Below, piece by piece: positions 44,333 to 57,877 of a DNA stretch of 64,000 bases. The first letter of the stretch is position 1; every line of letters begins with the position of its first letter. The stretch spans positions 1-64,000 of the forward strand of contig NZ_LOEP01000016.1 of assembly GCF_001482285.1 (NCBI RefSeq), in the 5' to 3' direction. Source of the DNA: Haloferax sp. Q22 (lineage in GTDB: Archaea > Halobacteriota > Halobacteria > Halobacteriales > Haloferacaceae). The notes under the pieces are model-generated. The model did no database searches, had not been told where the DNA came from, and saw only the letters and a list, made by a program, of their open reading frames with translations. The position numbers were made by a program, and so were the translations under genes.

Positions 44333-44405
44333 GTCCTGATAGGGTAGTGGACTATCCTCCTGGCTTGCGGAGCCAGGGACCGGAGTTCAAATCTCCGTCA
44401 GGACG
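44333..44405 (+). tRNA. tRNA-Arg (GCG)
   Basis: Acceptor GTCCTGA/TCAGGAC, anticodon stem CTGGC/GCCAG with loop TTGCGGA (anticodon GCG), T-arm CGGAG-TTCAAAT-CTCCG and discriminator G73 give tRNA-Arg for CGC/CGU codons. Its 3' part is duplicated 122 bp downstream. Confidence 0.92.
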
Positions 44406-44504
44406 TTTCTCTCTGGAACTACACGACGAGCGAAGCGAGGAGTCTGTTCCTCGCTGAAACTCCGTCTCGGAGACTTGAACAGGGAGCGACAGGAGGGAGC
44501 GAGT

Positions 44505-44541
44505 GAGTTCAAATCTCCGTCAGGACGTTTCTCTCCGGAAC
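44505..44541 (+). repeat. Copy of the tRNA-Arg 3' end and its trailer
   Basis: Bases 44383-44419 (T-arm 3' part, acceptor strand and 14 bp of trailer) recur here with one mismatch in 37. The 85-bp spacer contains GAGCGAAGCGAG at 44428-44439. No integrase gene or other element lies between the copies. Confidence 0.85.
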
Positions 44542-44635
44542 CGGCCTTCGAGAGCCTTCTGTTCTCTCGGGGCGGTTCACATTCTCTGCGGACCTGAACG
44601 GCGAGCGATTTCGCCGCAAACGGGTTCAGCGCTCG

Positions 44636-45319
44636 TCAGGACTCGACGTGAGCGGCCAGTCCGAGGTCCAGTTCTTCGACCCCGTCGAGCACTAAGTCGG
44701 CCATGCGGCGCGCTCCGTGCTCGCTGAAATGCGTGTCGTCGGCGATTCCATCGAGATAGTTCGGGTGTTCGCCCGGCTCCAGATGGTTGTAGAGCGCCGT
44801 CGACGCTTCGGGGCCGAGTTCCGCTAAGAGTGACCGCGTTCGCTCGTCCATGTCGATGAACGGAACGTCGCGGTCGCGCGCGACGGCTCTGGTCAGGTCG
44901 GCGTACTCGCGGTGGGTGTCTTTCGGGACGCCGTCGTCGTCGAAGTGACGCCGCGCGATGGACGTGAGCAACACGGGCGTCGCCCCCTGCTCGCGCGTCT
45001 CACCGACGAATTTCCCGAGATTGTCGACGAACCCCTCCTTGGTCGTGTGCTGTTCTTTCGACGGCACCTCGTCGTTGTGGCCGAACTGGACGAACACGTA
45101 GTCGGTCTCGGTCAACTGGCGGACGACGGGACGCCAGCGTCCCTCCTCCAGAAACGTTCGGGTGCTACGCCCGTTTTGGGCGTGGTTCGCCACCGTGACG
45201 GCGTCGTCGAAACAGTCGGCGAAGGGCATTCCCCACCCGGTTTCGGGGCGCTCGTTCGCCTCCTTATCGGCCATGGTGGAGTCCCCGACGAGGTGGACGG
45301 TAATCGACTCGGACGACAT
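44636..45319 (-). CDS. SGNH/GDSL hydrolase (rhamnogalacturonan acetylesterase-like)
   Basis: The product has 227 residues from MSSESITVHLVGDSTMADK. It has SGNH blocks: catalytic Ser in VGDSTMAD (block I), NHAQNGRSTRTF, block III FGHNDE, and the Asp/His pair in DGIADDTHFSEHGARRMADL near residue 205. This matches CE12-type esterases that deacetylate pectin-like sugars. No signal peptide, so intracellular or exported by an unknown route. Monocistronic. Confidence 0.85.
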   Translation of the reverse strand: MSSESITVHLVGDSTMADKEANERPETGWGMPFADCFDDAVTVANHAQNGRSTRTFLEEGRWRPVVRQLTETDYVFVQFGHNDEVPSKEQHTTKEGFVDNLGKFVGETREQGATPVLLTSIARRHFDDDGVPKDTHREYADLTRAVARDRDVPFIDMDERTRSLLAELGPEASTALYNHLEPGEHPNYLDGIADDTHFSEHGARRMADLVLDGVEELDLGLAAHVES

Positions 45320-53916: not shown

Positions 53917-53990
53917 GGGCTCGTGGTCTAGTTGGTTATGACGCGGCCTTTACAAGGCTGAGGTCGGTGGTTCGAATCCGCCCGAGCCCA
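53917..53990 (+). tRNA. tRNA-Val (UAC)
   Basis: Acceptor GGGCTCG/CGAGCCC, anticodon stem CGGCC/GGCTG with loop TTTACAA (anticodon TAC), T-arm GGTGG-TTCGAAT-CCGCC and discriminator A73. Three partial copies of its 3' end follow within 300 bp. Confidence 0.94.
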
Positions 53991-54079
53991 CTAATTCTGT
54001 GCGAGCGATAGCGAGCACGAATTCGTGAACCGAGGGCGGTCGAACCTTGCGGCAACCGAGTGTAGCGAGGTTGACGGAG

Positions 54080-54102
54080 TGGTTCGAATCCGCCCGAGCC
54101 CA
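54080..54102 (+). repeat. tRNA-Val 3'-end copy 1
   Basis: A 23-base identical copy of the tRNA end at 53968-53990 (T-arm, acceptor strand and discriminator A), 112 bp downstream. The spacer contains GAGCGATAGCGAG (54003-54015) and GAGTGTAGCGAG (54058-54069). Confidence 0.9.
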
Positions 54103-54200
54103 TCAGATTTTGTGACGAACCGAACGGTGAGTCACAAATCTGTTCCGCGAGGGCGATTCTAACCTGACGACGAGCGAGGCGAAGCCGAGCGAAGTCGGCG

Positions 54201-54223
54201 TGGTTCGAATCCGCCCGAACCCA
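54201..54223 (+). repeat. tRNA-Val 3'-end copy 2
   Basis: Same 23 bases with a single change in the acceptor strand (GAACCCA for GAGCCCA), 121 bp after copy 1. The spacer carries CGAGCGAGGCGAAGCCGAGC in the 30 bp before the copy. Confidence 0.9.
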
Positions 54224-54264: not shown

Positions 54265-54286
54265 CGGTTTGAATCCGCCCGACTCA
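54265..54286 (+). repeat. tRNA-Val 3'-end copy 3, degenerate
   Basis: GGTTTGAATCCGCCCGACTCA is a more diverged copy about 64 bp after copy 2, preceded by GAGCGTAGCGAG (54245-54256). Divergence rises with distance from the tRNA gene. Confidence 0.75.
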
Positions 54287-54496
54287 CACGCTCCGTTGCA
54301 TCACGAACAGCGACATCGGGACGCTGGCGGCGACGAGACCGAACGCGCCGCCGACGATCGGTTCGACACCCAGCGACGGGCCGAGGAGGTAGCCACCGAC
54401 GAACCCGAGCGGGTCGAAAGCTAACGCGAGGATGACGAGCTGTACTGCGAACGGTTTGGAGGTGAACCAGCGGGGGAGTAGTGACACGGTCGTCAA
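54284..54496 (-). CDS. Small two-helix membrane protein
   Basis: The frame has 70 residues if read from a TTG at 54496, or 67 from the GTG at 54487. It has two hydrophobic stretches (FAVQLVILALAFDPLGFVGGYLLG and EPIVGGAFGLVAASVPMSLFVM). CTAAATAG (about 54518-54526, minus strand) lies 22-30 bp before the TTG. The stop touches the degenerate third tRNA copy. Weak start codons lower my confidence. Confidence 0.5.
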   Translation of the reverse strand: MTTVSLLPRWFTSKPFAVQLVILALAFDPLGFVGGYLLGPSLGVEPIVGGAFGLVAASVPMSLFVMQRSV

Positions 54497-55326: not shown

Positions 55327-55350
55327 CAACGCGGATCAAATCCTACCACA
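55327..55350 (+). repeat. Arm 1 of a perfect 24-bp inverted repeat
   Basis: This lies inside the intact reading frame (His-Asn-Ala-Asp-Gln-Ile-Leu-Pro). Its exact reverse complement occurs at 55494-55517, 143 bp further on. Being part of the conserved domain, this arm is probably the original. Confidence 0.95.
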
Positions 55351-55493
55351 GCACCAGCGGCTCGACGTTGGCGACGAGATACGACTCGGCCCGCCGGGCT
55401 CGGGCGCGCCGTCGTTCCGCGTCGCCTTGGTCGAACCCGAGCGGACTCTCGTGTTGAGTGCGCCGGGCTGGGAGACCGGCGAGAGCCCGGCGG

Positions 55494-55517
55494 TGTGGTA
55501 GGATTTGATCCGCGTTG
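55494..55517 (-). repeat. Arm 2 of the 24-bp inverted repeat, at the gene lesion
   Basis: Reverse complement of 55327-55350. It contains the TAG stop and shifts the frame by one. This arm is probably the newly copied one. Confidence 0.95.
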
Positions 55518-55770: not shown

Positions 55771-55844
55771 GCCGCCTTAGCTCAGACTGGGAGAGCACTC
55801 GACTGAAGATCGAGCTGTCCCCGGTTCAAATCCGGGAGGCGGCA
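55771..55844 (+). tRNA. tRNA-Phe (GAA), copy 1
   Basis: Acceptor GCCGCCT/AGGCGGC, D-arm GCTC...GAGC, anticodon loop CTGAAGA (GAA), T-arm CCCGG-TTCAAAT-CCGGG and discriminator A73. It is identical in all 74 bases to the tRNA at 57626. TTCGAAAGTCTTTTTGAT upstream looks like the promoter. Confidence 0.95.
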
Positions 55845-55945
55845 TTTTTCTGTTCCTGACCGCCGAGCGAAGCGAGCGTGGCAGGTACTGTAACCGCGAC
55901 CCGCCGGATTCTGAACCAGCGAGCAAATCTTTGATTTGCGAGCGA

Positions 55946-55961
55946 GGTTCAAATCCGGGAG
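55946..55961 (+). repeat. tRNA-Phe T-arm copy, locus 1
   Basis: GGTTCAAATCCGGGAG repeats the tRNA-Phe T-arm, preceded by a hairpin GCAAATC-TTT-GATTTGC and GGATTCTGAACCAGCGAGC. GAGCGAAGCGAG occurs at 55865-55876 in the spacer. Confidence 0.85.
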
Positions 55962-55974
55962 ACTGGACCCAGAG

Positions 55975-55991: not shown

Positions 55992-56129
55992 ACCGAATTC
56001 TCAACGACACACTACGAACGACGTGGAATCCAAGCGACTCGATCCCGGAGACCCGACTACACCGCACCGCAGGAACCAGAGGCGTGCTTCAGAAGACTTA
56101 TCCGCGTGAGGTCGCTGGATTCAAAGGCA

Positions 56130-56324
56130 ATGGCGAAAGGTAAGGTCGACTTCTTCAACGACACTGGCGGCTACGGTTTCATCTCTACTGACGACGCGGA
56201 CGACGACGTGTTCTTCCACATGGAAGATGTTGGCGGTCCGGACCTCGAAGAGGGTCAGGAAATCGAATTCGACATCGAGCAGGCCCCCAAGGGCCCGCGC
56301 GCGACGAACGTCACCCGCCTCTAA
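56130..56324 (+). CDS. Cold-shock domain protein, copy 1
   Basis: The product has 64 residues. It is a CspA-type OB fold with RNP1 GGYGFIST and RNP2 DVFFHM, starting MAKGKVDFFNDTG. It is acidic, as usual in haloarchaea, and likely an RNA chaperone. It differs from the second copy only at I45V. The first 135 coding bases of the two genes are identical, which suggests recent duplication or gene conversion. TTATCCG about 30 bp upstream is shared by both promoters. Confidence 0.93.
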   Translation: MAKGKVDFFNDTGGYGFISTDDADDDVFFHMEDVGGPDLEEGQEIEFDIEQAPKGPRATNVTRL

Positions 56325-56471
56325 GCAGGCTTCCGTTCACCGCAGTACATTCACAAACTGACGAACTTTCCTCCGTTTTTCACGACCGTGAGCGGCGGCG
56401 TTCGCGACCGGGTGAGTGAGTCACAGACATGCGGAAGGGTTATCCGTCCGCAGGGTCGTTGTACAGTTGCA

Positions 56472-56666
56472 ATGGCGAAAGGTAAGGTCGACTTCTTCAA
56501 CGACACTGGCGGCTACGGTTTCATCTCTACTGACGACGCGGACGACGACGTGTTCTTCCACATGGAAGATGTTGGCGGTCCGGACCTCGAAGAGGGTCAG
56601 GAAGTGGAGTTCGACATCGAACAGGCCCCCAAGGGCCCGCGCGCGACGAACGTCACGCGCCTGTAA
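56472..56666 (+). CDS. Cold-shock domain protein, copy 2
   Basis: The product has 64 residues, 342 bp downstream of the first copy in the same direction. It has a similar TTATCCG box but an otherwise unrelated upstream sequence, so the two may be expressed under different conditions. A T7 run at 56711-56717 may end its transcript. Protein identical to copy 1 except Val for Ile at residue 45. Confidence 0.93.
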   Translation: MAKGKVDFFNDTGGYGFISTDDADDDVFFHMEDVGGPDLEEGQEVEFDIEQAPKGPRATNVTRL

Positions 56667-56710
56667 TTCGGTTTCCGAATTCAGCAGACAGACGAATCGA
56701 TTTCTGAGAG

Positions 56711-57625: not shown

Positions 57626-57699
57626 GCCGCCTTAGCTCAGACTGGGAGAGCACTCGACTGAAGATCGAGCTGTCCCCGGTTCAAATCCGGGAGGCGGCA
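57626..57699 (+). tRNA. tRNA-Phe (GAA), copy 2
   Basis: All 74 bases equal copy 1 at 55771. ATTCGAAATGGTTTTTTCGC upstream resembles the promoter of the first copy. The trailer starts with the same GCATTTT and carries a T-arm copy about 105 bp downstream. Confidence 0.95.
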
Positions 57700-57803
57700 T
57701 TTTCCTGCGAACTACCGAGGGAGCGTCGCGACCGAGTCGTGAGCAGTGAAACTGCAACCCGACCGGATTCTGAACCAGCGAGCAAATCTCCGATTTGCGA
57801 GTG

Positions 57804-57820
57804 CGGTTCAAATCCGGGAG
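57804..57820 (+). repeat. tRNA-Phe T-arm copy, locus 2
   Basis: CGGTTCAAATCCGGGAG preceded by hairpin GCAAATC-TCC-GATTTGC. The same unit GGATTCTGAACCAGCGAGC seen at locus 1 precedes it; the stem is conserved while the loop differs (TCC versus TTT). Confidence 0.85.
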
Positions 57821-57877
57821 AAGATCGTTCTAAACCGAGAGCGTCAGCGAAAGCCAAAGCTCGAAACCAACTCCCGC

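Follow-up and report, generated by a model that had tools for sequence, protein, structure and literature searches.

Hairpin-containing units that end in a copy of the tRNA 3' end behind tRNA genes of Halobacteria

The systems closest to the repeats described here are: (i) the tail repeats of E. coli tRNA genes; (ii) the scars left by integrases (attL/attR); (iii) integron cassettes; and (iv) short dispersed palindromes. The E. coli tyrT/tyrV tail repeats (rttR, tpr) are tandem non-coding units behind a tRNA gene, each of which ends in a copy of the tRNA 3' end; at tyrV, these copies lie 156, 334 and 512 nt behind the tRNA (178 bp spacing), with 3 mismatches in 22 positions. We know of no core common to different tRNAs among the E. 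coli tail repeats, and RttR is a case in which an RNA role has been proposed for a tRNA trailer. In integrase scars, part of the tRNA 3' end is repeated behind the gene. Integron cassettes with attC hairpins are chained, have the hairpin beside the exchange point and are anchored at a fixed site, and REP, PATE and MITEs are short, non-coding, palindromic and repeated. In a haloarchaeal study, PATE elements are named and a Haloquadratum prophage is marked by a 22-nt tRNA duplication (PMC3119063). In haloarchaea, tandem units ending in the tRNA 3' end, as in the E. coli tyrT type, are found behind tRNA genes of many isotypes.

The locus from which they are approached lies in a stretch of 64,000 nucleotides of Haloferax sp. 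Q22 (hereafter, the window), whose source genome is a 3.98-Mb draft in 56 contigs. A tRNA-Arg (GCG) gene is located there at 44333..44405 on the + strand (ARAGORN; Rfam RF00005, 53.6 bits). A sequence-only reading had claimed that a 37-bp block with the 3' end of this tRNA and 14 bp of trailer recurs downstream, and a repeat search confirmed both the recurrence and the content: the first copy (44383..44419, +), which comprises the 3' part of the T-arm, the acceptor strand and the 14 bp of trailer, and the second copy (44505..44541, +), in which 44507-44527 corresponds to tRNA nt 53-73, differ at 1 of 37 positions and start 122 bp apart. A third copy of the tRNA 3' end, decayed and with one deletion, was recognised by eye at 44624..44642 (+). 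Hairpin 1 of this Arg unit (44415..44450, +) is weak, with five pairs (GGAAC / GTTCC) and the apex GAGCGAAGCGA at 44428-44438, and in its region (44406-44460) the DNA fold, with a z of -1.41, prefers another pairing. Hairpin 2 has its 5' arm at 44468..44480 (+), the reverse complement of the T-loop/T-stem copy with one mismatch, and its region (44466-44520) reaches a DNA fold z of -2.10. As a whole, the Arg unit of the window folds no better than shuffles (z -0.24 and -0.44 on the two strands).

From the inclusion of the trailer, the same reading had concluded that the repeat looks like a duplicated unit rather than a simple att core. A unit that goes beyond a bare att core is borne out, but the trailer is not its defining part: the 14 bp inside the repeat are specific to the Arg locus and its near relatives, and in general identity drops past discriminator base 73. 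The term duplicated unit is likewise incomplete, since the copies enclose a hairpin architecture that recurs behind many tRNAs throughout the Halobacteria.

Arg had been described as the third amino-acid family with this arrangement in the window, and indeed Arg, Val and Phe all show it. The tRNA-Val (TAC) gene (53917..53991, +, ARAGORN) is followed on the same strand by hairpin 2 of a first unit at 54034..54102, with the 3' end copy at 54082-54102 (DNA fold of 53992-54102, z -4.94), by hairpin 2 of a second unit at 54151..54223, with the copy at 54203-54223 (DNA fold of 54103-54223, z -3.75), and by a third, decayed copy at 54267..54287. Behind the first tRNA-Phe (GAA) gene (55771..55844, +, ARAGORN), hairpin 2 occupies 55904..55967 (+) and the copy, with 3 mismatches, 55947-55967 (DNA fold of 55845-55970, z -3.65); behind the second tRNA-Phe (GAA) gene (57626..57699, +, ARAGORN), hairpin 2 is at 57763..57826 (+) and the copy, with 5 mismatches, at 57806-57826. 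The Val and first Phe units are predicted to fold strongly as DNA (z -3.65 to -4.94). The tRNAs for Met (38528) and Asn (38699) in the window are without the tail arrangement. Two other repeats are seen near the Phe genes: an inverted repeat (55327-55367 and 55477-55517; arms of 41 nt, 83% complementary, gap of 109 nt), and, between the two Phe genes, a tandem short gene starting with MAKGKVDFFNDTGGYGFI, with copies of 209 nt that are 95% identical (56127-56335 and 56469-56677), which we take to be cold-shock-like. Adjacent pairs of tRNA-Phe, Asp and Val, as in the window, are described for Hfx. volcanii (PMC2841640).

For a survey of the whole genome, each of 49 tRNA loci was searched, up to 400 bp downstream, for a recurrence of its own last 21 nt (T-loop to base 73). 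An own copy at up to 2 mismatches was found at 16 of the 49 loci, versus 3 of 2236 pairs in a mismatched control (a tRNA 3' end against the downstream stretch of another amino acid's tRNA), which excludes chance. Three of the 16 matches are whole neighbouring tRNA genes (upstream bases 40/40 identical), leaving partial copies at 13/49 loci: Arg GCG and CCT; His; Gly CCC; Lys CTT; Val TAC and CAC; Ser TGA and GGA; Met; Asp; Tyr; and Leu TAG. At 3 mismatches, one Phe and one Glu are added. In a genome from another family of the same order (G177), a copy is present at 20 of 43 tRNA places, but in cross pairs at only 1 of 1718. The Leu CAA case among the 20 is a longer, near-whole tRNA copy (upstream bases 35/40 alike), which leaves 19/43; the Ser TGA tail of this genome has up to five copies. 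A non-halobacterial archaeon (G147) has no copy within 400 bp at any of 31 places, belonging to 30 of its 44 tRNA loci; a perfect tRNA-end copy lies 649 nt behind one of its tRNA-Met genes.

Among genomes of the order, 37 of 53 contain a generic hairpin pattern (GATTTGARC, 12-42 nt, GTTCAAATC), as do 2 of 241 others of the phylum; the reversed-pattern control gives 0. Thirty of the loci were read, and 27 of them are at most 600 bp from a tRNA gene. Forty named stretches contain the tRNA-Arg version, including Haloarcula, Halorubrum, Haloferax, Halobellus, Natrinema and Halovenus. Among 74 tRNA-Arg places in 70 genomes, 47 places, from 17 of 27 genera, have a copy at up to 3 mismatches, a share biased upward by 30 of the 70 loci being best-scoring matches; the other 27 have no copy at that threshold. 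At these 74 places, where copies were sought up to 400 bp only and more distant ones may have escaped notice, no long mobile element was seen between tRNA and copy. In a set of 96 distinct tRNA-Arg places, some of which were selected because they have copies, a copy lies 85-200 nt downstream at 68, and 58 of the 68 copies are identical to their own tRNA; where the tRNA end is of the variant CCGGACG, its own variant stands downstream in 13 of 14 cases. The tRNA-Arg (GCG) gene itself is duplicated within about 0.5 kb at L061, L056, L114 and L089 (genomes G034, G025, G007 and G047).

The anatomy of a unit was derived from a copy-edge profile of 158 units of 33 isotype/anticodon kinds, from which whole tRNA neighbours had been removed. 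The first copy spans tRNA nt 52/53 to 73, that is, the partial 3'-end copy by which integrase scars are also recognised. It matches the tRNA at 0.94-1.00 over nt 53-73, partly by construction (at most 3 mismatches were allowed), partially at nt 51-52 (0.61 and 0.78) and at 0.20 at nt 50; downstream of base 73, the match is 0.54, 0.71 and 0.41 at +1 to +3, where trailers are T-rich, and 0.26-0.46 thereafter. Units often have two hairpins: (i) hairpin 1, which in many units begins directly past base 73 (e.g., 13 perfect pairs in L077) and in others, the Arg unit of the window among them, is weak; and (ii) hairpin 2, whose 3' arm is the T-loop/T-stem copy and whose 5' arm is its reverse complement, with at least 9 of 14 Watson-Crick pairs in 83 of 91 modules. 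Copies number 1 to 5 per array, with interiors of about 60-190 bp between them. By eye, a shorter module of about 65 bp, with some 13 nt of the acceptor end as its end, is found behind tRNA-Arg, and a second class of hairpin 1 with a constant-looking apex (CGAGAGAC-CTCYGT-GTCTCTCG and variants; L082, L069, L114, L107, L098 and L102) takes turns there with the GAGCGNAGCGAG class.

The 14-nt arm forms 7-13 Watson-Crick pairs with its own copy (n=41) and commonly 8-11 with the ends of other tRNAs, a modest whole-arm specificity that is due to the T-loop being common to tRNAs; in the tRNA-specific T-stem part, 664 of 865 cells agree with the arm's own tRNA, compared with 17347 of 35505 for other tRNAs. 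Of the sites of the form GAGC-loop-GCGA with loops of three, 67 of 81 have a GNA loop, and GNA loops have unusual stability in DNA. Three such motifs occur in the window, all at tRNA tails, although with 0.89 expected and 3 reached in 5 of 100 shuffles the count alone is weak.

Interiors are shared between tRNAs. When up to 1 mismatch is allowed, 35 of 99 genomes in the order contain a 28-nt core, AGTCGCGCGCAGCGNAGCGAGCACGTCT (control, 0). Thirty of its loci were read; a tRNA gene is no more than 700 bp away from 27 of them, with 11 isotypes represented, and the flanks of the core, read by eye, spell the T-arm of the neighbouring tRNA in most of them. An identical stretch of 47 nt follows both Lys TTT and Arg CCG in G177, and one of 49 nt follows both Leu TAG and Leu GAG; in the genome of the window, none of the 23 units compared has 22 nt or more in common with that of a different tRNA. 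The same interiors behind different tRNAs, with tRNA-specific flanks, imply that an interior can pass from one locus to another, the arms remaining those of the local tRNA. Exact hairpins of the tRNA-Arg type adjoin a tRNA-Arg gene in 19 of 19 cases.

The comparison between strains that the sequence-only reading had asked for was made in an alignment of 11 congeners, which shows absent, truncated and swapped units. The Arg unit is complete in 4 of the 11. In G102 it is absent, with the junction inside the repeat; G117 keeps its first hairpin and lacks the second; the unit of G085 and G065 begins with another kind of hairpin 1; and in G049, G091 and G112 there is a trailer hairpin and no tRNA-end copy. 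Within arrays, the first copy is less decayed than the last in 46 cases, more decayed in 4 and equally so in 16, a gradient that is in part a cut-off effect, first copies having been allowed 3 mismatches and later ones 6.

These observations could be accounted for in different ways. Units that are co-oriented with the tRNA and begin at its processing site may be co-transcribed as structured RNA, with trailer hairpins for 3' processing, termination or small RNAs; the GNA motif is mostly tRNA-sense (160 vs 39), a G.U pair at U54 is kept, and hairpins upstream of some termination sites are reported for Hfx. volcanii (PMC7237163). Even so, this explanation is rated as unlikely. A helix selected as RNA should tolerate G.U and not A.C, as is the case in the acceptor and T stems of 71 tRNAs (position-based control; 41 G.U, 3 A.C), whereas the units have 100 G.U and 98 A.C in a count that includes whole tRNA neighbours (Fisher P 4e-8 versus tRNA stems, a guide only, as cells share ancestry). 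Their G.U:A.C ratios are 74:58 in hairpin-2 arms (edge and U54 columns excluded), 9:30 in inner stems (to which a single constant C.A of the core contributes) and 17:10 in hairpin 1. A first count of 116 G.U vs 25 A.C had suggested RNA selection, but 92 of the 116 came from the U54 pair and the outer-edge column, and the difference was gone without these two columns; a bracket-based tRNA control (141 G.U, no mismatches) was replaced by the position-based one because the program notation hides mismatches. The absence of a G.U excess in the stems argues against selection on the transcript, and the pattern of a conserved structured RNA is not seen in the units apart from one column: the U54 pair, excluded from the symmetry count, is kept as G.U in 58 of 83 modules and is readable as RNA selection. 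In Rfam, the units have no match (E values up to 1 for the Arg tail, gathering scores for 16 loci), the tRNA being the only hit in the Arg tail; 33 of the 49 tRNAs of the same genome do without a tail copy at 2 mismatches; and readings as H/ACA guides or kink-turns were dropped, as the expected boxes were absent by eye.

About equally doubtful is the explanation of the units as attachment-site remnants, either minimal non-autonomous elements or interior-deleted scars, left by a tyrosine recombinase crossing over in the T-loop. A partial copy from the T-loop to base 73 is the leftover expected of such integration, of which the 22-nt tRNA duplication at the Haloquadratum prophage is an example (PMC3119063), and presence and absence are clean within the genus. 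Scars, however, would not be expected to have conserved hairpin interiors common to many isotypes and families, and an excision scar as the whole story is rejected on this ground; nor was an integrase-bearing element seen between tRNA and copy in the 400 bp searched. The AGTCGCGCGCAGCGNAGCGAGCACGTCT core matches no IMG/VR contig, the Arg unit is absent from plasmid records, and the sole IMG/VR contig with a tRNA-Arg (GCG) end (L161, 9595-9655) carries about 60 nt of the tRNA, from the D arm on; this viral contig ends in the tRNA, as if cut at an integration site. The generic hairpin pattern was found in 79 IMG/VR stretches, which on reading resemble coding sequence or bacterial palindromes, and viral or plasmid carriage was therefore set aside. 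As a separate observation, the IMG/VR contigs L317, L322, L328, L347, L351, L366 and L371 (58-65% GC) have a long palindrome of T-arm/acceptor-like sequence and its reverse complement. Still less probable is that tandem duplication, slippage and palindrome correction behind highly transcribed genes produce the units as a neutral by-product, with neither element nor function. Recombination between repeats of this size is easy, G102 and G117 resemble repeat-mediated deletions, of a kind reported in Haloquadratum (PMC3119063), and template switching would preserve palindromes without selection, in agreement with the G.U/A.C symmetry; but the same interiors behind different tRNAs would be left unexplained, and so would the presence throughout the order versus 0/31 in the non-halobacterial control. 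Ordinary duplication is insufficient for the tail units.

With regard to the systems named at the outset, the E. coli tyrV repeats differ from the haloarchaeal units in having no reverse-complement arm (7/14 pairs; one locus examined), and integrase scars differ from them in that the haloarchaeal interior is a conserved hairpin pair common to several isotypes, with no integrase seen within 400 bp. Integron cassettes share with the haloarchaeal units, as a resemblance only, the chaining, the hairpin beside a presumed exchange point and the fixed anchor, but the haloarchaeal units are putatively devoid of integrase and, in those examined, of ORF, have many anchors and have arms fitted to each tRNA. 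Like REP, PATE and MITEs, the units are short non-coding palindromic repeats and, unlike them, they are not scattered in the sets tested; a dispersed palindrome is disfavoured by the exact tRNA-Arg hairpin being found only beside its tRNA. No description of the tails was found in a literature search covering mostly non-subscription sources, PMC3119063, PMC2841640, PMC8371274, PMC7714728 and PMC7237163 among them.

The reading preferred here, for which the chances are judged to be about even, is that the Arg unit of 122 bp is one of a Halobacteria-wide family of non-coding, tRNA-anchored hairpin cassettes that turn over by recombination. The anatomy, the distribution across isotypes and genera, the match of the arms to the local tRNA, the common interiors and the differences in content between close species are directly observed; the cassette mechanism and its benefit are put forward conditionally. 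According to this proposal, a cassette would sit directly behind a tRNA, starting past the discriminator base, usually with two hairpins, and ending in nt 53-73 of the same tRNA, so that any cassette could follow the tRNA harmlessly and chaining would be possible. The hairpins would matter as DNA, in a cruciform or in single strands. Cassettes would arise, spread and vanish when recombination or template switching takes place in the T-loop sequence, which would serve as an exchange sequence common to the tRNA, its copies and other tRNAs, and conversion would keep copy and tRNA alike. In a bolder and rather unlikely version, tRNA genes would be anchors for swappable DNA hairpin cassettes with a common core and target-programmed arms, able to use any tRNA by means of a recombinase or of templated strand switching. 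The units are ranked here with a known kind, repeats carrying a tRNA 3' end, and there is a real chance that they are something further.

Tails of this type, without match in Rfam, stand at 13/49 (about a quarter) and 19/43 (nearly half) of the tRNA loci of two halobacterial genomes. They bear on (i) tRNA genes as integration hot spots; (ii) concerted evolution in archaea with many genome copies; and (iii) tRNA 3' processing. Hfx. volcanii being genetically tractable, both the turnover and the function of the tails are directly testable.
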